Source: Aerococcus urinae (lineage in GTDB: Bacteria > Bacillota > Bacilli > Lactobacillales > Aerococcaceae). Taken from it: a stretch of 64,000 bases of DNA. This document shows positions 46,582 through 56,050 of the stretch, in pieces (positions within the stretch are counted from its first letter, which is position 1; every line of letters starts with the position of its first letter). The stretch lies in assembly GCF_001543175.1 (NCBI RefSeq), contig NZ_CP014161.1:372001-436000 (forward strand), given 5' to 3'. The notes beneath the pieces were generated by a model. It worked only from the letters and a program-made list of their open reading frames with translations, was not told the DNA's origin and did not search any database. Made by a program: the position numbers and the translations under genes.

Positions 46582-47115
46582 TTGGCAACAGAAGTCGAGC
46601 TTCTCAACGAAGCAGAAATGAAGCGCGCCTTAACGCGAATGAGCTATGAGATTTTGGAGCGCAACCATGGTACCGCTAATTTAGCCATCGTAGGGATTAA
46701 AACCCGCGGAGCAATTATTGCTAACCGGATTAAGGACCGCATCAACCAGTTAGAAGAGGCTGATGTCTTTTATGGGGAATTGGATGTTCGTGCTTACCGT
46801 GATGACCTCGACCAGGAAAAGGATCAGTTGGTCAAAGACTTATCCCAGTTGGACTTTGATGTGAATGGTAAACACATCTTTATCTGTGATGATGTCCTCA
46901 TGACTGGTCGGACCATTCGGGCGACGATGGATGCCTTGATGGATCATGGGCGTCCAAGCAAGATCTCTTTAGTCACACTTATTGACCGGGGCCACCGGGA
47001 ATTACCGATTCGTGCTGATATTGTTGGTAAAAACATTCCCACTTCCCGGCAAGAGAAAATTCGGGTGAAGATGCGGGAACTCGACAGTAAGGATGCAGTA
47101 TATATAATTAAATAG
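46582..47115 (+). CDS. pyrR: Pyrimidine regulatory protein / uracil phosphoribosyltransferase PyrR
   Basis: PyrR binds pyr mRNA leaders with UMP and attenuates pyrimidine genes; it also has weak uracil phosphoribosyltransferase activity. The 177-residue protein has the PRPP motif IFICDDVLMTGRT and the N-terminal GIKTRGAIIANRI. The start is TTG at 46582 with AAGGGGGAGA upstream; an ATG at 46577 is out of frame. No pyr operon or PyrR-binding leader is seen here, so it acts in trans. Its stop is only about four bases from the TPP riboswitch, and no other terminator stands between. Confidence 0.94.
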   Translation: MATEVELLNEAEMKRALTRMSYEILERNHGTANLAIVGIKTRGAIIANRIKDRINQLEEADVFYGELDVRAYRDDLDQEKDQLVKDLSQLDFDVNGKHIFICDDVLMTGRTIRATMDALMDHGRPSKISLVTLIDRGHRELPIRADIVGKNIPTSRQEKIRVKMRELDSKDAVYIIK

Positions 47116-47118
47116 TTG

Positions 47119-47200
47119 CTACTAGGGGAGCCTTTATGGCTGAGATGTATTTTACAGACCCTTTGAACTTGAGACTAGGTAATACTAGCGGAAGAAAGTG
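47119..47200 (+). ncRNA. TPP riboswitch (THI element)
   Basis: The conserved blocks are in order: ACTAGGGGAGCC, GGCTGAGATG, then GACCCTTTGAAC, CTTGAGACTAGGTAATAC and TAGCGGAAGAAAG. These match the thiamine pyrophosphate aptamer used across bacteria. It is followed by a terminator (47205-47241) and thiT, so ligand binding should stop transcription. It begins only a few bases after pyrR. Confidence 0.93.
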
Positions 47201-47204
47201 CACA

Positions 47205-47241
47205 AAAACAGGTAAGAGGCATTTTCTCTTACCTGTTTTTT
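47205..47241 (+). terminator. Riboswitch-controlled terminator of thiT
   Basis: AAAACAGGTAAGAG (47205-47218) pairs perfectly with CTCTTACCTGTTTT (47226-47239), followed by T. Position between aptamer and gene indicates the expression platform. It may also end pyrR transcripts. Confidence 0.92.
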
Positions 47242-47263
47242 GCTAGGAAAGGACTTTATAATT

Positions 47264-47830
47264 ATGGGACAAAGTAAACAAGTAAGAGTTTTATTAGAAG
47301 TTGCTATGGTAGCGGTCTTGGCTTATTTATTAGGTCTATTACCGACCACCAATGGAGTAGGTATTGGGGTAAACTTAGGGGTTATTCCCATTTATTTGAT
47401 CTCTTTAAGACGTGGGATAAAGAGCGGTTTTGCTGCCGGTTTCCTGTTTGGGCTTTTGCAATTAATCACTGGTCAAGCCACCATTCTAACCCCTTTCCAA
47501 GTTTTCCTTGAATACTTCTTCGCCTTTATGTTAGCAGGCTTAACGGGACTCTTAGCTAGTCGGGTCAAGAAAGCAGGGCTAGAAGGAGATAAAAAAGGGC
47601 TTTGGATCGGTATCTTTTCAGCGACCTTTATTGGGATGGTGGCCCAATACTTTATCCATTGGTATGCCGGCTATGCCTTCTGGTCTTCTTATGCCCCAGA
47701 AGGGATGAATGCTTGGTGGTATACGACCATTGTCAATGTACCTACCGGTTTCTTTACCTGGCTAGTAGGGGCTTTAGTGGTGGCTTTATTATTTAATAAT
47801 GCCCCCAGGCTCTTAAATCCAGAAGATTAA
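47264..47830 (+). CDS. thiT: Thiamine ECF transporter S component ThiT
   Basis: Membrane protein that binds thiamine and, with the shared EcfAA'T module, imports it. The ATG at 47264 follows AAAGGA and gives 188 residues with six expected helices. The thiamine-binding stretch HWYAGYAFWSSYAPEGMNAWWYTTIVN agrees with ThiT structures, where aromatic residues stack on the ligand. The upstream TPP riboswitch supports the substrate. No ecfAAT genes are in the window, as usual for group II ECF systems. Confidence 0.94.
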   Translation: MGQSKQVRVLLEVAMVAVLAYLLGLLPTTNGVGIGVNLGVIPIYLISLRRGIKSGFAAGFLFGLLQLITGQATILTPFQVFLEYFFAFMLAGLTGLLASRVKKAGLEGDKKGLWIGIFSATFIGMVAQYFIHWYAGYAFWSSYAPEGMNAWWYTTIVNVPTGFFTWLVGALVVALLFNNAPRLLNPED

Positions 47831-47871
47831 AGAGCAATTTTAACAATTGCTTAGATGGAATTATTGTTCTG

Positions 47872-47898
47872 AGACGTCCTTTGAGAGGGCGTCTTTTT
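47872..47898 (+). terminator. Terminator of thiT
   Basis: AGACGTCCT (47872-47880) pairs with AGGGCGTCT (47886-47894) with one G-U pair, followed by TTTTT. Confidence 0.85.
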
Positions 47899-47981
47899 AT
47901 TGACTGAGACTGATTTTTTGACAAAAAGAAAGATTTTATGGAATTGTTGGCGCGCAAACACTTTAATAAGAAAGCGTTTGC

Positions 47982-48053
47982 TATAATATTTTGTGAAAAG
48001 GATAACTAAAGTTAAAGCCTAGCTGAAAGCTTTCTCTCTTTTTTTAGTTAAGT
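47982..48053 (+). promoter_or_regulatory. Promoter and leader of the CPA-like transporter gene
   Basis: The 320-base gap after thiT holds TGCTATAAT (core 47982-47987), an extended -10, overlapped by AGAAAGCGTTTGCT, a near-match to a CcpA cre site. Downstream, AAAGC and GCTTT form a short hairpin before TCTCTCTTTTTTT (about 48013-48050), which could act as a weak attenuator. About 160 bases of leader precede the start codon. I see no known riboswitch in it. Confidence 0.45.
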
Positions 48054-48154
48054 ATGTGAAGTTATGAACTATATTTTTTACCCAAAGTGAGAAGGCTATA
48101 ACGACCAATAAGTAATAGAGGATTTAAGAAAAATATTGGAAAGGAGTGTTCAAT

Positions 48155-49411
48155 GTGTTTGTTCTTCGTTTCTTACTGGCAATGCTTATTGCTTATTTTG
48201 CCGGAGAACTGGCTAAGAAAATCAAATTCCCAGCCATCATTGGTTGGTTGATTGTGGCCATGTTTCTCGGAGAGCACGGGCTAAACCTTTTAAGCCCTGA
48301 ACTAATTTCAACCAAGGTCTATCAATCACTGATGGTACTTATGCAAATTCTAGTGGGGTCGATGGTGGGCTATAAGTTAGTTTACCGTGACATCAAGGAT
48401 TCCATCAGTAAAGTCTTCGCCATGGGAATATCTGACCTGGTGGTAACCTTTGCAGTGGTGACGGGATCTTTTGCCCTTATTCTTCACCTCTTAGGTCTAC
48501 CCATCATTGCTGCCTTACTCTTTGGGGGGATCGCTATTGCGACTGCACCGGCACCTCCAGTCTCAGTGGTGGAACAGTATGATTGTTCCGGCCCCTTATC
48601 TGATTCAGTGCCATCGATGACGGCTTTTAACTCAGTGATGGTTAACATTGTCTTCTTCCCCCTAGTATCGATTATTGGAGCGGTCTTAAACGAAAGTTCC
48701 ACTTCCGTCTTGGGCTCATTACTGATTATGATCTTAGCTCCGATTCTCTTGGGTGGGGTAATCGGACTGGTCGCAGGGAAATTAGTAGGAAAAGGCGCTT
48801 CCAAACAGCAAAGCTTCCTTATCTATTTGTTCTCCATGCTAGTCATTTATGCCTTAGATAATTATTTGAACTGGCATGTCTTCACTGAAACTCAGATGAT
48901 GTCCTTATTAGCCGGGATCGCGGGCTCATGCGCCTTTATGAACGTGGTGGATCCTGAGAAAGTACCGAGCTTGCAAATGGATCTCGGCCCAGTTCACTCT
49001 TATGCCTTAATGATTTTCATTGTCAACCTATCGATTCACCTGAATCCAGCAGCCCTATTTGACGGTGGCATGCTAATGGTGGCCTATATCTTGATTAGGG
49101 CTTTAGGCAAATACTTGGGTTGTTATCTGGGTGCCAAAATCAGTCATGCCCCCAAGGTCGTTGAAAAGTATATGGGAATCATTATGATGCCTCACTCGGG
49201 GGTCTCGATTATGTTTGCTGGGATTGCTGCCTATAATTTGATGGGGGTTTACCCTGAGTTAGCTAATCTCTTACAGATCACAATTTCAGCCGCTGCCCTA
49301 ATCATTGAAATTATTTCTCTCCCCCTAGCCGGCATGGTTTATCGAAAACTCGGCGAAGCGGGCAAGGAGAAAGAAAAATTGGCAAGGCAAGAAGACTTAC
49401 TGCCTAGCTAA
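48155..49411 (+). CDS. CPA-superfamily transporter (Na+/H+ exchanger fold), divergent
   Basis: Integral membrane protein of 418 residues with about 12-13 helices, related to PF00999-type cation:proton antiporters. The GTG at 48155 follows AAGGAG (48141-48146); an in-frame GTG at 48146 lies inside it. In typical members an ATDP motif and paired acidic residues in the core helix carry the ion. Here the equivalent stretches read IATAPAPPVSV and TAFNSVMVNIVFF, without those aspartates. The ion, or whether it moves a cation at all, is therefore uncertain. It opens a block with the regulator, thioredoxin, arylsulfotransferase and YeiH genes. Confidence 0.72.
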   Translation: MFVLRFLLAMLIAYFAGELAKKIKFPAIIGWLIVAMFLGEHGLNLLSPELISTKVYQSLMVLMQILVGSMVGYKLVYRDIKDSISKVFAMGISDLVVTFAVVTGSFALILHLLGLPIIAALLFGGIAIATAPAPPVSVVEQYDCSGPLSDSVPSMTAFNSVMVNIVFFPLVSIIGAVLNESSTSVLGSLLIMILAPILLGGVIGLVAGKLVGKGASKQQSFLIYLFSMLVIYALDNYLNWHVFTETQMMSLLAGIAGSCAFMNVVDPEKVPSLQMDLGPVHSYALMIFIVNLSIHLNPAALFDGGMLMVAYILIRALGKYLGCYLGAKISHAPKVVEKYMGIIMMPHSGVSIMFAGIAAYNLMGVYPELANLLQITISAAALIIEIISLPLAGMVYRKLGEAGKEKEKLARQEDLLPS

Positions 49412-49498
49412 GTGATGAAACGAAGCGGACATGACTCAACTTGTATTAAAATAAAAGGAGCAAACCAACCATATTGAAAGACACAGGGGGATGGGAAA

Positions 49499-50152
49499 AT
49501 GTCAACATCATTTATTGACTACTGTCTCAACCATGAGAAAGTCATTAATCACACCCGCCAGGAAAGCTATAAAAAGGGCGATGTGATTGAGACCATTGGA
49601 ACACGGATTACTGAAATTGGCATTGTCGATAAAGGTTTACTCAAAACAGTGAATTATTCGGCAGAGGGTAAGGAATTAAATACCACACTCTTCTTTACCA
49701 ATTCAATCCTATTGGAATACCTTTATTTTAACGAGAATTTAAACTATACCTATGATTTAGTGGTCTTACGGGCCACTACCGTTACCTGGATACCGGCAAA
49801 ATTATTTAAAGCCATCGTTTTTGAAGACAGCTTGGGTATGGAACTCTATGTCCACCACTTGATTGAGCGGGGCTTAGAATCCCAGCGGATCATTTCCTGC
49901 TTGAACTATCCTACTATTCGTGAACGGATTTGTTACTGGATTGCCTCCAAGAATTCTCTAGAAATTGGGCGGAGCGACATAAAGCCCGACATGGAACTAC
50001 CCTTCACCCAAGAAATTTTTGCCAAGTTAATCAAGGTCAGCCGGTCCAGTTTAAACCAAGAATTACACCATATGGAAGAAGAGGGCTTCTTTAAAATGAC
50101 ACGGAAGGCCTTAACCCATATTAATCAAGAGAAGATTTGGGATAACCTGTAA
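49499..50152 (+). CDS. Crp/FNR family transcriptional regulator
   Basis: Regulator of 217 residues with an N-terminal cyclic-nucleotide-binding-like beta roll (about 15-125: YKKGDVIETIGTRITEIGIVDKGLLKTV) and a C-terminal winged helix-turn-helix (about 160-210: LPFTQEIFAKLIKVSRSSLNQELHHMEEEGFF). It has only two cysteines, in the long helix (SCLNYPTIRERICYW), and no N-terminal cysteine cluster, so it is unlikely to bind an FNR iron-sulfur cluster. It lies 87 bases after the transporter gene and before the thioredoxin-arylsulfotransferase pair, which it may control. Confidence 0.85.
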   Translation: MSTSFIDYCLNHEKVINHTRQESYKKGDVIETIGTRITEIGIVDKGLLKTVNYSAEGKELNTTLFFTNSILLEYLYFNENLNYTYDLVVLRATTVTWIPAKLFKAIVFEDSLGMELYVHHLIERGLESQRIISCLNYPTIRERICYWIASKNSLEIGRSDIKPDMELPFTQEIFAKLIKVSRSSLNQELHHMEEEGFFKMTRKALTHINQEKIWDNL

Positions 50153-50187
50153 AGGAGTTGATGTCAAAAAATATTCATAACTCATGC

Positions 50188-50228
50188 GATGGCGTTAAGC
50201 CTTATAACTAGTCTTTAACGTCTCCATC
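50188..50228. promoter_or_regulatory. Inverted repeat before the thioredoxin gene
   Basis: GATGG with CGTTAAG (50188-50199) is mirrored by CTTTAACG with CCATC (50213-50228). A few unpaired bases interrupt the stem. No T-run follows, so it is not a simple terminator. It lies 40 bases before the thioredoxin gene and 35 after the Crp-type gene. An operator or an mRNA-processing hairpin are possible readings. Confidence 0.45.
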
Positions 50229-50267
50229 ATCAATTAGCTATCAAACATTAAATAAAGGAGTGTTGAG

Positions 50268-50576
50268 ATGATAAAAGAATACCAACAAGGTGATTTTAAA
50301 GCTGAAATTGCTGAGGGCAATGTTTTGGTCGATTTCTATTCGAAGACCTGTGGCCCTTGTAAAATGTTAAGTTTTATCTTAGAGGATATCGATAAAAGCC
50401 ATGGGGATGACCTGACTATTCTTAAAGTGAGTTTTGAAGAAAATACTGACATCGTGGAAGAATATGGCGTCGAAGGCTATCCAACCTTAGTTTATTTTAA
50501 AGACGGTAATGAAATTACCCGTAAAGCGGGCTTACAACAAAAACCAGTGATTGAAAAAATGTTAGAGGAGGAATAA
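50268..50576 (+). CDS. Thioredoxin-like protein
   Basis: A 102-residue thioredoxin fold with the active site C28-G-P-C31 and the cis-proline in EGYPTLVYF. Position 27 is Thr instead of the usual Trp before CGPC, which marks it as different from housekeeping TrxA. No signal peptide, so cytoplasmic. AAAGGAG precedes the ATG, and only two bases separate its stop from the arylsulfotransferase ATG. In E. coli the arylsulfotransferase operon encodes its own thioredoxin-fold oxidase DsbL; here a CGPC thioredoxin stands in the same position, which suggests a dedicated partner. Confidence 0.88.
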   Translation: MIKEYQQGDFKAEIAEGNVLVDFYSKTCGPCKMLSFILEDIDKSHGDDLTILKVSFEENTDIVEEYGVEGYPTLVYFKDGNEITRKAGLQQKPVIEKMLEEE

Positions 50577-50578
50577 TC

Positions 50579-52468
50579 ATGACAGAAACTGCAACTTATA
50601 CCTATAAAGAACACTTGATTGAAAAGCAAAGAAAAGCTGAAGAAGCCATGTTAGAGGAGTTTCACTTGGGAGACTATACTCTTGACAATCCTTTAGTGAA
50701 ATACAATGCCTACCTCATTAACCCTTTATCCGCAGTGGTCCTCTTTAAGACCGAAGAACCTACAGCCATTACTGTTCGCGTCCTAGGTAAGACTGAAGAA
50801 GCCGACATCTTCCAAACCTTCCCAGTAGGTACTGAACATGTACTTCCGATTGTGGGACTTTACCCTGAATATGAAAACAAGGTGGAAATCTATCCTTACC
50901 AAACTCCTTCCAAGAAACATACCGTAACTATTCCAGTGGGCCAAGTGGAAGGTACCGACCTAGTCAACTCGATTGAAACCACCCCTGAGTACATGCAAGA
51001 CAACATTATGTTCCTCTGCCCAGCTAACTATGCCTTAGCCATTGCGGTAGACTATGCGGGTGACGTGCGTTTGAAATTAGATGTGCCTATGGTCTGGGAC
51101 GTTAAGGTGCTAGACAATGGCCACTTGCTCATGTCCAGTGACCGTTTGACCTCTATGCCTTACTTTATGAGTGGGATGTATGAATTCTCAGCAGTAGGTA
51201 AGATTTATACCGAATACCGGGTACCTACTGGTTTCCACCACGACTGTTGTGTCTTACCAAATGGCGATATCATTGCCCTAACCTGTAACCATGAAAATAG
51301 CACCGTAGAAGACCAATTAGTGGTAGTGGATAAGGATACCGGGGTGGTTAAACGGACCATTAACTATATTGACTTCTTAAAACCTGGCGCTCAAAAATCT
51401 GGTTCCTGGTCAGAAGAAGACTGGTTCCATAACAATGCTGTCTGGTATGACAAACATACCAACTCCTTAACCTTATCTGGTCGTCATGTGAATGCTATGG
51501 TGAATATTGACTTCGATACCGAAGAAATTAACTGGATTATTTCTGATCCCGATGGCTGGCCAGAAGAATATCATAAATATCTCTTCACTCCAGTGGGTGA
51601 TGGAGAATTTGACTGGCAATATGAACAACACGCTAACTTGATTACTCCTGATGGCGACGTGATGTGCTTTGACAACCACCACTACGGGGCTCAAGATCCA
51701 GACAAGTACTTAACACCAGAAGAATCCTATTCACGTGGGGTCCGTTACAAGATCGATACCGAAACCATGGAAATTGAACAAGTCTGGCAATATGGTAAAG
51801 AACGTGGTTACGAATTCTTCTCACCATATATCTGTAATGTGGTTTACTATAATGAAGACCACTACCTCATTCATTCCGGCGGTATTGCTTATGACGGCCA
51901 AGGTAATCCATCTAAAGAATTAGGGCCATTTGCTATGCAAGAAGATCCTGATGCTAAATTAGAATCCATTACCGTTGAGTGGAACCATGGCGTTAAGGAA
52001 TATGAATTAAGCGTGCGTTCTAACTACTACCGGGCTGAGAAATTCCCATTATATTCTAAGAAGGGTGGGGAATATGACTTACAATTAGGCGCTGGACGTG
52101 TTCTCGGTTACTTAGGTGAAACCGCGCAAATGGACTATGACATCCCAGCTGAAGAAGTCAATGAACCCGTTCCTGAAAAGGTTGACGTTCGTCTAACCGA
52201 TGAAGAAGATATGTTTACCTTTGAAGCCATGTTTGAAAAAGGCCAATTGGTCATGTTAGTCCTTGAAGGCGAAGAAGATACCCGTCGTTACTTCATTTCA
52301 ACCGCTAAGGGGCATCGCGGAGCTATGTGTGCCGGAACCTTCCTACCTAAGGATGACCGCGAAACCCGTACTGTGGTCACCAAATACGGCTTTGATAAGG
52401 GAGATTACAAGGTCAAATTAATCATCGATGACAAGAAATATGATACTGGCCTAACCATTAAGGGTTAA
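50579..52468 (+). CDS. Arylsulfotransferase (ASST family), without signal peptide
   Basis: ASST enzymes move a sulfate from one phenolic ester to another phenol by way of a sulfated histidine, without PAPS. This 629-residue protein has the N-terminal domain (YTLDNPLVKYNAYLINPLSAVVLF, 33-56) and a propeller with the expected active-site blocks: H220-H221 in GFHHDCCVLPNGD, H303 in SGRHVNAMVNID, and H351 in EQHANLITPDG, which matches the nucleophile of the E. coli enzyme, plus R387 in YSRGVRYKID. Gram-negative members are periplasmic; this one has a charged N-terminus and no signal. Cysteines include a vicinal pair, C223-C224. It is the second gene after thioredoxin with GAGGAGG before the ATG. 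Confidence 0.85.
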   Translation: MTETATYTYKEHLIEKQRKAEEAMLEEFHLGDYTLDNPLVKYNAYLINPLSAVVLFKTEEPTAITVRVLGKTEEADIFQTFPVGTEHVLPIVGLYPEYENKVEIYPYQTPSKKHTVTIPVGQVEGTDLVNSIETTPEYMQDNIMFLCPANYALAIAVDYAGDVRLKLDVPMVWDVKVLDNGHLLMSSDRLTSMPYFMSGMYEFSAVGKIYTEYRVPTGFHHDCCVLPNGDIIALTCNHENSTVEDQLVVVDKDTGVVKRTINYIDFLKPGAQKSGSWSEEDWFHNNAVWYDKHTNSLTLSGRHVNAMVNIDFDTEEINWIISDPDGWPEEYHKYLFTPVGDGEFDWQYEQHANLITPDGDVMCFDNHHYGAQDPDKYLTPEESYSRGVRYKIDTETMEIEQVWQYGKERGYEFFSPYICNVVYYNEDHYLIHSGGIAYDGQGNPSKELGPFAMQEDPDAKLESITVEWNHGVKEYELSVRSNYYRAEKFPLYSKKGGEYDLQLGAGRVLGYLGETAQMDYDIPAEEVNEPVPEKVDVRLTDEEDMFTFEAMFEKGQLVMLVLEGEEDTRRYFISTAKGHRGAMCAGTFLPKDDRETRTVVTKYGFDKGDYKVKLIIDDKKYDTGLTIKG

Positions 52469-52499
52469 AGAAAGACATTTTAAATTTCTTTAAAAAAAT

Positions 52500-52529
52500 T
52501 TGGACAAATTAACCAAACTATGGTCTAAT
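52500..52529 (+). promoter_or_regulatory. Candidate promoter of the YeiH gene
   Basis: TTGGAC (52500-52505), 18-base spacer, TCTAAT (52524-52529). The hairpin at 52539-52586 would lie at the very start of this transcript. Confidence 0.4.
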
Positions 52530-52538
52530 AAAATAGCT

Positions 52539-52586
52539 ACCTCGGAAGCCTTTTCCGTTATAAGAAGCGACTTCTGAGGTGCTTTT
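52539..52586 (+). terminator. Terminator or attenuator between the arylsulfotransferase and YeiH genes
   Basis: ACCTCGGAAG (52539-52548) pairs with CTTCTGAGGT (52571-52580), with one G-U pair and a 22-base loop, followed by GCTTTTATTATTTT. It lies right before the YeiH ribosome site, so it may limit read-through or act as an attenuator. Confidence 0.6.
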
Positions 52587-52606
52587 ATTATTTTAAGGAG
52601 GAAGAT

Positions 52607-53596
52607 ATGGACATTTTAAAAAAGAAGAGCTTTTGGCTCTCATTTATTCTGTTATTATTAGTATCATTATTCGCTAAATGGCTATCAGGCTTCCCTGGCT
52701 TATCCTTAATTGGTCACTTAGTGATTGCCTTAATTATTGGGATGGTTTTACAAGCATCTGGTCAATTAAAGGGGATCGCCAAGGGGGGATCAGGCTTTAT
52801 CTCTAACAAGTTCTTACGTTTAGGGATTATCTTGATGGGCTTCCGCCTCAACCTGGAAGTGCTGGCTCAACACGGTGTCAAGACCATTACCCTAGCTATT
52901 GTGGTCATCGCCTTCACGATTGGGCTAATTTATAGCCTGGCTAAGGCTGCAGGGATTGAACGTAAATTATCCCTCTTATCAGCTTCAGGGTGTGGGATCT
53001 GTGGGGCAGCTGCTGTCCTTGGTCTATCACCCATTATTGAAACCGATGAGGACGATGAGGTTATTTCTGTTGCCGTAGTCGCTATTCTAGGGACCATCTT
53101 TACCTTGATTATGGTACTCTTACGGCCAATCATGGGTTTAACCGATGTTCAGTTTGGAGTCCTAGCTGGTGGCTCATTACATGAGATCGCCCATGCTGTC
53201 GCTGCTGGGGCCGCGGGTGGAGCTGCTTCAGAAAATATTGCCGTGATTGTTAAGTTGTCACGGGTATTAATGCTAGCGCCGGTTTCCTTGATTTTCTCTT
53301 ATATTGCTAGTCGTCGGAGTGATGGCAATAGTCATGCCAAGATTCAATGGCCATGGTTCATGTTAGGTTTCATTATTTCTTCGGCCATTGGGACCTACGC
53401 TGGTCTATCAGAAGCTATTGTGGGTCACTTAGTTGACTTAGCCTATATTCTCTTAGGGATGGCAATGGCTGCTTTAGGGGTAAATGTGAACTTTAAAGTG
53501 GTCTTTGAAAAGGGACAAAAAGTCTTTGCAGTTTGCTTCGCCGGCTCAGTAGCTCTCTTTGCCCTTGTCTTTGTTGCGGCTAAAATGTTCTTCTAG
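52607..53596 (+). CDS. YeiH/PSE family putative sulfate exporter
   Basis: Integral membrane protein of 329 residues with about ten helices, family PF03601 (annotated in general as a putative sulfate exporter on limited evidence). The conserved SGCGICGAAAVLGLSPII and AGGSLHEIAHAVAAGAAGG segments are present. AAGGAGG precedes the ATG. It follows the arylsulfotransferase gene with only a hairpin between, so export of sulfate, sulfite or an organosulfur product of that enzyme is a reasonable inference. A bidirectional terminator follows. Confidence 0.83.
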   Translation: MDILKKKSFWLSFILLLLVSLFAKWLSGFPGLSLIGHLVIALIIGMVLQASGQLKGIAKGGSGFISNKFLRLGIILMGFRLNLEVLAQHGVKTITLAIVVIAFTIGLIYSLAKAAGIERKLSLLSASGCGICGAAAVLGLSPIIETDEDDEVISVAVVAILGTIFTLIMVLLRPIMGLTDVQFGVLAGGSLHEIAHAVAAGAAGGAASENIAVIVKLSRVLMLAPVSLIFSYIASRRSDGNSHAKIQWPWFMLGFIISSAIGTYAGLSEAIVGHLVDLAYILLGMAMAALGVNVNFKVVFEKGQKVFAVCFAGSVALFALVFVAAKMFF

Positions 53597-53612
53597 TCAA
53601 ATAGAGTAAAAG

Positions 53613-53644
53613 AAAAACGCAAGTCCATTCGGGCTTGCGTTTTT
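53613..53644. terminator. Bidirectional terminator
   Basis: AAAAACGCAAGTCC (53613-53626) and GGGCTTGCGTTTTT (53631-53644) form a stem of 14 pairs with one G-U pair around a four-base loop. It serves the YeiH gene and the convergent rplY gene. Confidence 0.93.
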
Positions 53645-53655
53645 GTATGAAGTGG

Positions 53656-54285
53656 TTATTCTGCGTCAGAATCTTTTTCGCCGATTACTTCAGGTTCAGC
53701 GGCTACAGCTGGTTCTGCATCTTCTTCAGGTTCGTCATCTGGAGCGCTGACTGATACGATAACTTCTTCTGGGTCGGTAATTAATTCAGCTTCTTCCATA
53801 CCTTCGAATTTAACTTCGCCGGCAGTAACGCTGTCATTAATGTCTAAGCCGCTAACATCCACAGTGAAGTATTCTGGCGCTTTAGCAGGGTCAATACGTA
53901 GGGTAACTTCGTAGACGTTGATGGCTGCCACACCAGCAGGGTTAGCTAGCTTCTCTTCGCCAACGATAGATACAGGAACGTTAACCTCAAGTTTTTCACC
54001 TTTCTTGATTGCTTGTAAGCTAATGTTATAAACGATTGGCTTAATAGCTGCGCGAGAAATTTCACGTAAGAAAACGGTACGGCTTCCTTGTCCTTCAATT
54101 TCTAATTCGAAAACTGAGTTAGTCCCTAAGTCACGTTCAATTTTTTCCACGTCTGGGCGTTCCATTGAAATTTTGATAGGGTCTAGGTCACTAGCATACA
54201 CGACACCTGGAACTAAGTCTTCACGGCGTAAAGCCTTTGAAGCGGATGTTCCTGCAGCATCACGCGTTTTTGCTACAAATTTCAT
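53656..54285 (-). CDS. rplY: Ribosomal protein L25 / general stress protein Ctc
   Basis: Binds 5S rRNA in the large ribosomal subunit. The 209-residue form has the N-terminal L25 domain (FVAKTRDAAGTSASKALRREDLVPGVVYASD) and the C-terminal beta domain of the long Ctc type (about 95-180), then a disordered acidic tail. Two adjacent ATGs follow AGGAGG; the second (54285) has the better spacing and the family start MKF. In Bacillus this protein rises under stress; no sigma-B site is visible here. Confidence 0.92.
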   Translation of the reverse strand: MKFVAKTRDAAGTSASKALRREDLVPGVVYASDLDPIKISMERPDVEKIERDLGTNSVFELEIEGQGSRTVFLREISRAAIKPIVYNISLQAIKKGEKLEVNVPVSIVGEEKLANPAGVAAINVYEVTLRIDPAKAPEYFTVDVSGLDINDSVTAGEVKFEGMEEAELITDPEEVIVSVSAPDDEPEEDAEPAVAAEPEVIGEKDSDAE

Positions 54286-54532
54286 CATTCTACCTCCTGA
54301 TTATTACTTTTATGAATTCTTTGAATTCCTAAAAACTACTCAATTATAGCACAAAGGGCCATAATAGATCAAGAATCCATAGTTTTTCAATTTCTATTTA
54401 ACCATAAAAAGGCCAAGAGTTGTAGTGTTTTTGAAAAATATTTCTTGTAATTCGCTTTTTGCTTGTCTAGAGAATAAAAGAAGGACTTCTAGTTTTTAAT
54501 CCCTAGTGGACCAACTCAAGGCCTAAGTATGG

Positions 54533-54538
54533 TAAAAT
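54533..54538 (+). promoter_or_regulatory. Candidate -10 of thrC
   Basis: TGGTAAAAT with core TAAAAT, an extended -10, 37 bases before the ATG. The rest of the 290-base gap between rplY and thrC is AT-rich and shows no T-box or other clear leader structure. Confidence 0.45.
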
Positions 54539-54574
54539 AACGGCAATAATATCTGCTTACCTAGGAGGTTATCC

Positions 54575-56050
54575 ATGTTATACACCAGTACGAGAAATAG
54601 TCAGCTTTCTGTTCGGTCAACAGAGGCAATTTTGCAAGGCCTAGCGCCTGATGGGGGGCTTTATGTTCCTAAATCGATTCCTCATTATCAAGGGGATTGG
54701 GAGACGATGAGCAAGTTGTCCTACCAGGAACTAGCCTTTCAAATTTTAAGCCTCTATTTTGATGATTTTCCTGAGGACATTTTACAGACCTGTATCCAAG
54801 CCGCCTATGATGAAAAATTTGATGATGACCGCATTGCACCGGTAGTTGGTTTATCCGATCATTATCTCTTGGAACTTTTCCATGGGCCGACGATTGCCTT
54901 TAAGGACATGGCCTTATCCTTACTCCCTCACTTAATGAAGGCTGCCCAAAAAGTCTTGGGTCGCGATGAAGAAATTATCATTTTAACCGCGACTTCAGGA
55001 GACACCGGTAAGGCCGCTATGGCTGGTTTTGAAGACGTGACTGGGACTAAGATCATTGTCTTCTATCCTAAGGGCGGGGTTTCCAGCATTCAGGAAAAAC
55101 AAATGCTGACCCAAAAAGGAGACAACACCTATGTCTTTGGGGTCAAAGGAAACTTTGATGACGCTCAAAGTAAGGTCAAGGAGCTTTTCAATGATAAGGA
55201 CTTAGCAGCGGAACTTCAAGCCAACCATAGCCAATTTTCTTCTGCTAATTCCATGAATATCGGTCGCTTGTTCCCTCAAGTGGTTTACTATTTCTATGCC
55301 TATGGGCAATTACTGAAACAGGGCGCGATTCAAGCAGGGGACTTGGTCAACTTTACGGTGCCAACCGGGAATTTTGGAAATATATTGGCTGGCTACTATG
55401 CTAAGCAAATGGGCCTACCGATTGACCGCTTAGTCTGTGCCTCAAACGACAATACCGTCCTCTATGACTTCTTCAATAGCGGGACTTATGACCGCCGTCG
55501 TCCTTTTAAATTGACCATCTCTCCTTCGATGGATATTTTGGTCTCCAGTAACCTGGAACGGCTCTTGTATTACGCCGTGGGTCAGGATAGTCAAGCGGTC
55601 AAAGACTTGATGGCTGCATTACAGGATGAAGGTCACTACCAATTAGGTCAAGAAGTGCAAGCGGCCTTTGATAGCTTTATTGGAGCCTATAGTGATGAAG
55701 CTGAAACTAGAGCAGAAATTAAGCGCGTTTACCAAGAGGACCACTACCTCATGGATCCCCATACGGCCGTGGCTTCCGCCTGCCTAGGCAAGGTGAAGGA
55801 CCAGTTAGCGGGGGAAAGTATTGTGGTATCGACCGCCAGTCCCTTTAAATTCCCCGCTGCCGTTTTGGAATCAATCGATAAGGGCGACAGTCATTTAAGT
55901 GACTTAGAACTCTTAGAGGCAGTGCAAGCGGCCAATGGTTTGGACTATCCCCAAGCAATCCAAGCCATCCTTGAAGCGGACAGCCGGCCTGAACGGGTAA
56001 TTGAAGTGGAGGAAATGGAAACAGTGGTAAGAGAGATTGCCAAAGGATAG
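54575..56050 (+). CDS. thrC: Threonine synthase
   Basis: PLP enzyme that converts O-phosphohomoserine to threonine. The 491-residue length fits the longer bacterial/yeast-type group. The N-terminal SVRSTEAILQGLAPDGGLYVP and the PLP lysine motif FHGPTIAFKDMALSLL (K about 110) are diagnostic, as is TATSGDTGKAAMAG for the phosphate loop. CTAGGAGG precedes the ATG. No hom or thrB is adjacent. coaBC follows ten bases later, and the thrC stop overlaps its ribosome site. Confidence 0.95.
   Translation: MLYTSTRNSQLSVRSTEAILQGLAPDGGLYVPKSIPHYQGDWETMSKLSYQELAFQILSLYFDDFPEDILQTCIQAAYDEKFDDDRIAPVVGLSDHYLLELFHGPTIAFKDMALSLLPHLMKAAQKVLGRDEEIIILTATSGDTGKAAMAGFEDVTGTKIIVFYPKGGVSSIQEKQMLTQKGDNTYVFGVKGNFDDAQSKVKELFNDKDLAAELQANHSQFSSANSMNIGRLFPQVVYYFYAYGQLLKQGAIQAGDLVNFTVPTGNFGNILAGYYAKQMGLPIDRLVCASNDNTVLYDFFNSGTYDRRRPFKLTISPSMDILVSSNLERLLYYAVGQDSQAVKDLMAALQDEGHYQLGQEVQAAFDSFIGAYSDEAETRAEIKRVYQEDHYLMDPHTAVASACLGKVKDQLAGESIVVSTASPFKFPAAVLESIDKGDSHLSDLELLEAVQAANGLDYPQAIQAILEADSRPERVIEVEEMETVVREIAKG

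Follow-up and report, generated by a model that had tools for sequence, protein, structure and literature searches.

A gene cluster of Aerococcus urinae probably encodes a cytoplasmic module for the reductive desulfation of imported aryl sulfates, in which a thioredoxin (Trx) would serve as sulfuryl acceptor (we give this a probability of roughly 0.6). The cluster lies in a 64,000-nucleotide stretch (C1:372001-436000; 'the window') of a 1.97 Mb, single-contig genome. It includes, in + strand order, a CPA antiporter gene, a Crp-type regulator gene, the Trx gene, a gene for an arylsulfate sulfotransferase (ASST), a hairpin and a YeiH/PF03601 gene. The Trx gene ends at 50576 and the ASST gene starts at 50579, a spacing of 2 bases. 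The initial annotation had described this arrangement (a CGPC Trx immediately before an ASST without signal peptide, with the YeiH/PF03601 gene downstream) and both the coordinates and the Pfam results agree with it. The novel part is the gene context (Trx and thioredoxin reductase, TrxB; AsrABC; YeiH), not the enzyme family. The context is strong in a large part of the ASST family, and from it we infer the chemistry.

The cytoplasmic ASST

Both domains of the window ASST clearly exceed the Pfam cut-off of 24.2 bits (PF05935, 314.7 bits; PF17425, 64.1 bits). At E <= 0.001, Pfam identifies these two ASST families only and no 3'-phosphoadenosine 5'-phosphosulfate (PAPS) reductase domain. An AlphaFold2 model built from 43 sequences (predicted local distance difference test, pLDDT, 91.9) has ASSTs as its best PDB matches (4p04, 3ets, 3elq, 4p05 and others; best E 1.7e-27; template modelling score, TM, 0.54-0.57 by query length), and the sulfotransferase Cpz4 ranks after them. 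As modelled, the protein folds as an ASST and not as a PAPS reductase, and the structure prediction supports the original family assignment.

Alignment with the Escherichia coli ASST (3ELQ) provides an equivalent for five active-site residues: H221 (H252 in E. coli), H284 (H356), N286 (N358), R302 (R374) and H351 (H436). All five are unchanged across 141 aligned ASSTs. Sulfuryl transfer passes through a sulfated residue, His436 in the E. coli enzyme (PMC13426309), and by alignment this is H351 of the window ASST. The initial annotation had listed H221, H303, H351 and R387 as active-site residues. H221 and H351 were correct, whereas H303 is not among the listed residues and R387 is really R386.

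No signal peptide was found in the window ASST: its N-terminus is polar and the open frame continues just 8 codons beyond the predicted open reading frame (ORF), to 637 aa. Hydropathy over the first 40 residues reaches at least 2.0 in 25 of 29 other, mostly signal-bearing ASSTs but in only 2 of 109 cytoplasmic rows of the alignment, both with a start that is doubtful or truncated; extended to 60 residues, the comparison does not separate the groups. The 109 cytoplasmic rows, like the 84 rows designated 'main', count one gene (L032 = L142; L numbers denote loci and G numbers genomes) twice. Together with the active site matching 3ELQ, the missing signal peptide upholds the earlier proposal of a cytoplasmic counterpart of the periplasmic ASST.

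Two cysteines, judged from the alignment, mark this cytoplasmic family. C419 is Cys in 103 of the 109 rows (Ser in the remaining 6) and C584 in all 109. In the 29 other ASSTs the position of C419 is occupied by G (22), S (6) or C (1) and that of C584 is a gap. In the 3ELQ alignment the window ASST has no counterpart of the E. coli loop that carries cysteines 418 and 424 (chain numbering).

The window ASST most likely belongs to the 'Cluster II' ASSTs (for example, that of Desulfitobacterium hafniense), with which it shares the PF05935 family and the catalytic residues. This assignment is based on shared organisms: Desulfosporosinus sp. HMP52 (L202), Hungatella effluvii (L150, L197), H. hathewayi and Niameybacter massiliensis are sources of Cluster II enzymes and also occur in our locus set, matched by organism and not by gene. 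Cluster II enzymes, including those of Desulfosporosinus sp. HMP52 and H. effluvii, transfer the sulfuryl group from p-nitrophenyl sulfate (PMC13426309, PMC11468790, PMC11576661). The members tested are PAPS-independent, as had been suggested for the window enzyme.

The window genome contains only one other PF05935 gene (C1:1433271-1434341; L060:5714-7456). Its product opens with a lipobox-like MCLLAGC and no Trx match lies beside it. The genome thus has one cytoplasmic ASST and one that is probably exported.

Conserved neighbourhood of the ASST genes

To examine relatives of the window ASST we used 79 loci from a scan of named genomes. These represent the best 80 of 197 candidates, and the resulting linkage rate is biased towards window-like sequences. 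The loci include Lachnospiraceae, Hungatella, Enterocloster, Anaerococcus, Erysipelotrichaceae, Ornithinibacillus, Desulfosporosinus, Desulfobulbaceae, Desulfovibrio and others. Trx and TrxB both occur within 4.5 kb of the ASST in 59 of the 79. In all 59 the three genes share a strand, and 52 have the order TrxB-Trx-ASST, the two gaps in these having medians of 23 and 26 nt. Thirty loci from the same order that hold the other, mostly signal-bearing type of ASST served as control (three of them, L052, L055 and L059, with broken or fragmentary ASSTs); no Trx match was found in any of the 30, and a repeat on all ORFs agrees. The pairing of ASST and Trx is therefore beyond chance, and the Trx partner noted in the window clearly recurs. 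One control locus, L045, has a TrxB-like protein about 5 kb from its ASST.

The Trx from ASST loci resemble each other. In 61 of them the residue preceding CxxC is never Trp, and 52 carry GYPT. The third Trx of the window genome has ATWCGPCR with SIPT, and on these motifs the ASST-linked Trx form a group distinct from that WCGPC protein. The TrxB of the window genome (CAIC motif; C1:1809290-1810240) lies away from the ASST locus. With a second Trx it spans C1:1808921-1810240, adjoining an inositol-monophosphatase gene. This TrxB is 78% identical to that of locus L038 and the second Trx is 74% identical to the window Trx. In L038 the order is TrxB-Trx-ASST, followed by a homologue of the same inositol-monophosphatase gene. 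A CGPC Trx with a partner TrxB constitutes a dedicated thioredoxin system, and the window genome has both.

In an order-level sample of 295 genomes PF05935 occurs in 30; among 33 stretches fetched from these 30, a cytoplasmic ASST with Trx is present in L032 and L038 in addition to the window, and in both of these TrxB directly precedes Trx. At the level of the family, 3 of 76 genomes have a full-length window-type ASST and a fourth has a weak partial match. The family includes Hutsoniella sourekii, whose locus L142 is the same gene as L032 (G293).

A second type of ASST (PF05935/PF14269; L064:5607-7424) is naturally fused to a C-terminal Trx domain. The fusion lies between TrxB and YeiH, and a Crp gene is also present. 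In L124 and L125, which come from a different family within the phylum, a single same-strand run contains genes for Crp, an MFS transporter, a window-type ASST, an L064-type ASST, Trx and TrxB. L064-type ASSTs without Trx (L115, L117, L118 and L122, from large-genome relatives of the same class) adjoin three genes with products of roughly 345, 260 and 260 aa. In L115 the 344-aa neighbour, the only one scanned, is an NMT1-type ABC substrate-binding protein, and such neighbours may serve the uptake of sulfate esters for sulfur.

Other neighbours, identified by phmmer with queries from the loci themselves, vary. Of the 79 loci, 52 have a DASS-type anion transporter near the ASST and 36 a Crp-type regulator; PF03601 (4 loci), CPA (3) and MFS (2) proteins are less frequent. 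In 24 loci there is a phosphoribosyltransferase-like protein, perhaps regulatory, with an orotate-PRT-like, weak match to PF00156 (for example, L157:11763-12467). In addition, the same loci contain 25 second copies of the ASST, tandem or divergent (L148, L150, L153-L161 and others), all with Cys at 419. This suggests that the paralogues divide labour between donors.

Homologues of AsrA, AsrB and AsrC are all near the ASST in 16 of the 79 loci. In 15 of these AsrA starts 37-209 nt past the last ASST; L174 has AsrABC upstream. The run in H. hathewayi L153 is DASS, TrxB, Trx, ASST, ASST, AsrA, AsrB, AsrC, a CysG N-terminal-domain protein and HemC, so that siroheme-synthesis genes follow AsrABC. 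Its Asr proteins, the sole trio so scored, exceed the NCBIfam equivalog cut-offs (439.9/323.15, 333.5/288.6 and 371.5/324.1 bits).

The YeiH gene of the window starts 138 nt past the ASST, beyond the hairpin, and since the gap holds this hairpin it is unsure whether the two are co-transcribed. The protein is assigned to PF03601 and reaches 160.8 bits on TIGR00698 (cut-off 232.6). It is 52% identical to the YeiH beside the Trx-ASST fusion of L064. PF03601 genes of divergent subfamilies, in place of AsrABC, adjoin the ASST in L138, L139, L142, L151, L064 and the window. Two further PF03601 genes, both weak matches, lie elsewhere in the window genome. A NIR_SIR protein was not found in this genome by a search that matches 11 of 14 control genomes, so sulfite would not be reducible there by a known siroheme enzyme.

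Proposed chemistry and its alternatives

The steps of the proposed route are as follows. A co-encoded transporter would bring the aryl sulfate in. The substrate would sulfate H351 and the phenol would be released. The sulfuryl group would then move to a thiol, either directly to a Trx Cys or first to the family-specific C419 of the ASST, and the S-sulfonate would be resolved by a second thiol to give sulfite and a disulfide. Trx would be re-reduced by TrxB with NADPH. The net reaction would be aryl sulfate + Trx(SH)2 -> phenol + sulfite + Trx(S-S). Sulfite would be exported by YeiH in the window genome, which has no siroheme sulfite reductase, and would be converted to sulfide by AsrABC in some Clostridia. 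In net terms the module would serve the cell as an electron sink, as a sulfur source or in both ways. The initial annotation had allowed for either sulfation or desulfation of phenols, and the route proposed here narrows this to reductive desulfation with Trx as the putative acceptor.

The sulfuryl-transfer potential of aryl sulfates is high and close to the value for PAPS, and their reduction by Trx should consequently run downhill. In PAPS and adenosine 5'-phosphosulfate (APS) reductases working with thioredoxin, the sulfuryl group passes to a thiol and sulfite is freed by thiol exchange. The ASST route would, by analogy, work as PAPS reductase does, except that the pre-activated substrate would be an aryl sulfate. 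PAPS/APS reductases differ in having an unrelated fold and a nucleotide substrate.

With Trx as acceptor, the presence of TrxB and Trx, of AsrABC together with siroheme genes, of the PF03601 genes and of the Trx-ASST fusion is explained. A number of observations weigh against it. We infer thiol acceptance by ASST and the release of sulfite solely from gene context, and purified Cluster II enzymes act on phenols. The place of C419 in the active site is unproved: T501 of the E. coli ASST, thought to coordinate the sulfuryl group, has C419 as its equivalent in one alignment and I418 in a profile alignment, where C419 pairs with S502. TrxB has no copy at the window ASST locus, and YeiH-like genes also lie beside two ASSTs of the other type (L061, L063).

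The linkage to Trx is also not universal. An even sample of the phylum (398 genomes) has the ASST family at E <= 1e-60 in 14. The 22 matches, minus the window, two G447 fragments and a 1664-aa secreted protein (G608), leave 18 loci; an in-frame stop interrupts L261, and L254 begins at the edge of a contig. Trx is linked in 7 of the 18 (6 of 11 genomes), with TrxB in 6 of the 7. Neighbourhood conservation, which the initial annotation had named as a check, is thus common in the 79 relatives and partial in the even sample: a large part of the ASST family, but not all of it, has linked Trx. The 1664-aa protein (L267:5571-10565), apparently secreted, has two ASST-like halves and C-terminal repeats that are S-layer-like by eye.

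Two statistical associations likewise weaken on closer inspection. C419 is present in 64 of 65 cases with linked Trx vs 14 of 19 without (p = 0.0019, uncorrected), but the tree provides about one informative independent pair, on which this is not significant, and we have not used it as proof. Among the 49 well-flanked loci, AsrABC occurs in 12 of the 38 with linked Trx and in none of the 11 without (p = 0.045, uncorrected), and this is again not significant on independent tree pairs. AsrC is present in 34 of the 398 phylum genomes; 3 of these also have the ASST, with 1.2 expected (14 x 34/398), and AsrC never adjoins the ASST in this sample. In addition, L255, a locus of this sample without Trx, carries genes resembling AsrA (104 bits) and AsrB (164 bits) near its ASST; the only match to AsrC there is ferredoxin-like.

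A different role for Trx and TrxB would be redox maintenance. They would keep C419, C584 and C363 of the ASST reduced, or switch the enzyme, while the ASST swaps sulfate between phenols in the cytoplasm. The conservation of C419 and C584 in the cytoplasmic rows and the activity of Cluster II enzymes on phenols are in keeping with this. It leaves AsrABC with its siroheme genes and the PF03601 neighbours unexplained, however, and the L064-type Trx-ASST fusion is without these cysteines (S at 419, a gap at 584 and V at 363). We consider this explanation unlikely.

Another alternative concerns the donor, which could be a sulfuryl compound of another kind, such as an N- or S-sulfonate, undergoing the same Trx-dependent reduction. 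Donor specificity is not readable from sequence, and both the variety of transporters (DASS in most loci, CPA or MFS in a few) and the tandem paralogous ASSTs of many loci would suit such a donor. The Cluster II members in the table of a review use p-nitrophenyl sulfate or other aryl sulfates, however (PMC13426309), and an unrelated natural donor seems improbable.

The initial annotation regarded YeiH as an exporter of sulfate, sulfite or the sulfated product. A sulfatase-like ASST, with sulfate or the sulfated product leaving through YeiH, is the weakest proposal and very improbable: PF03601 proteins do carry a putative sulfate exporter annotation (TIGR00698, for which the window YeiH is under the cut-off), but the Eubacterium A-44 ASST transfers the sulfuryl group without hydrolysing the donor (PMC13426309), the substrate of AsrABC is sulfite and not sulfate, YeiH guards Salmonella against sulfite (PMC12880088), and TrxB and Trx are left unaccounted for. 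We have set sulfate aside for sulfite, since AsrABC takes the place of YeiH in relatives. Sulfite resistance in Salmonella depends mainly on YeiH, whose structure suggests sulfite transport (PMC12880088). The window YeiH shares PF03601 with this PSE family protein; it adjoins a putative sulfite-producing enzyme, and the neighbouring regulator is Crp-type rather than the LysR-type YeiE.

The system of E. coli CFT073 (ASST with DsbL/DsbI) is similar in combining an ASST with a thioredoxin-fold partner in one operon and in the chemistry of catalytic H436. It is periplasmic and oxidative and forms an essential disulfide, whereas the window ASST has no signal peptide and no cysteine loop, and its CGPC Trx goes with TrxB. 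The original suggestion that Trx replaces DsbL was dropped: a DsbL-like role is unlikely, given the missing disulfide loop and the TrxB that accompanies Trx in relatives.

As an extension of the Trx-acceptor reading, we tentatively suggest a dissimilatory pathway, to which we give slightly less than an even chance. Aryl sulfates made by hosts or plants would represent pre-activated sulfate from which sulfite is obtained with no ATP used for activation, Trx being the physiological acceptor. The sulfite would be reduced to sulfide by AsrABC or otherwise exported by YeiH; in sulfate reducers Dsr could presumably perform this reduction. AsrABC-linked taurine degradation (PMC9016944) likewise leads from organic sulfur to sulfite and sulfide. 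It cleaves a sulfonate, whereas the route proposed here would first need a two-electron reduction of a sulfate ester. In gut genomes asrABC is more prevalent than dsrAB (PMC9016944). The terms 'sulfotransferase' and 'sulfate ester' are absent from the available text of that paper, which mentions uncharacterised microbial sulfatases.

The 2026 review treats bacterial ASSTs as tools for sulfating phenols (PMC13426309), and Cluster II enzymes are described as phenol-sulfating biocatalysts; a Trx-coupled function differs from this. In their available portions, the review and the 2024 enzyme papers (PMC11468790, PMC11576661) do not contain the word 'thioredoxin', the available part of a paper on clostridial disulfide enzymes (PMC12453122) has nothing on Trx-ASST pairing, and 'sulfotransferase' does not occur in that of the D. 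hafniense genome paper (PMC3306737). No description of a Trx-coupled ASST, or of sulfite as an ASST product, was found among the open-licence literature matches listed, as far as their available text extends. The gene context suggests an undescribed route from sulfated phenols to sulfite and then hydrogen sulfide. If this is correct, a Trx acceptor makes this class of ASST reductases inside cells, gut AsrABC gains a source of sulfite, and phenol sulfates (p-cresyl, indoxyl), drug sulfates and flavonoid sulfates become linked to gut sulfite and hydrogen sulfide. Several Cluster II ASSTs have already been produced in E. coli (PMC13426309, PMC11576661), so the chemistry should be testable soon.

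Promoter and other features of the locus

The features of the cluster are listed in the table.

Table. Features of the ASST cluster in the window (positions are those of the window)
Feature	Position	Strand	Evidence or remark
Crp-family-type palindrome TGTTGGCGCGCAAACA	47945..47960		predicted activator site, centre -41.5 of cluster promoter
Predicted -10 element TATAAT, cluster promoter	47982..47987	+	sequence; same TGCTATAATAT upstream of TrxB2
CPA-type antiporter/permease, candidate importer or ion-coupled transporter	48146..49411	+	PF00999 1.6e-14
Crp/Fnr-family regulator	49499..50152	+	cNMP_binding 3.6e-07; HTH_Crp_2 6.3e-06
Dedicated thioredoxin, SKT-CGPC and GYPT cis-Pro motif	50268..50576	+	PF00085 3.7e-22
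Cytoplasmic ASST, 629 aa	50579..52468	+	PF05935 1.1e-93; PF17425 1.3e-17
Hairpin, then T-rich run: terminator or YeiH leader	52526..52590	+	fold -24.1 kcal/mol, z -2.6
YeiH/PSE family membrane protein, predicted sulfite exporter	52607..53596	+	PF03601 4.7e-72

Two sites in the genome match the pattern TGTTGGCGCGNNAACA exactly. One precedes the CPA gene and the other the unlinked TrxB-Trx2 genes, and the pattern was itself drawn from these two promoter sites. At both, 24 nt separate the tenth base of the palindrome from TGCTATAATAT. With 2 mismatches allowed, the palindrome pattern has three further places in the genome and a backwards control pattern has two. The position of the palindrome centre given in the table assumes that transcription starts 7 nt past TATAAT. 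A centre at -41.5 fits a class II site for a Crp-type activator. These promoter sequences would fit co-regulation of the window cluster and TrxB-Trx2 through the common palindrome.

The HTH_Crp_2 match of the window regulator scores 26.5 bits (cut-off 27), and the protein is 50% identical to the Crp adjoining YeiH in L064. In three Anaerococcus loci (L144-L146), homologues of the CPA protein immediately precede TrxB-Trx-ASST.

An Rfam search of positions 47000-55000 identified a thiamine pyrophosphate (TPP) riboswitch outside the ASST cluster, plus two sub-threshold matches. The riboswitch (RF00059, 47114-47213) scores 61.8 bits against a gathering score of 54.3 and is followed by a membrane-protein gene (47240-47830), whose product we take to resemble the thiamin transporter subunit ThiT.

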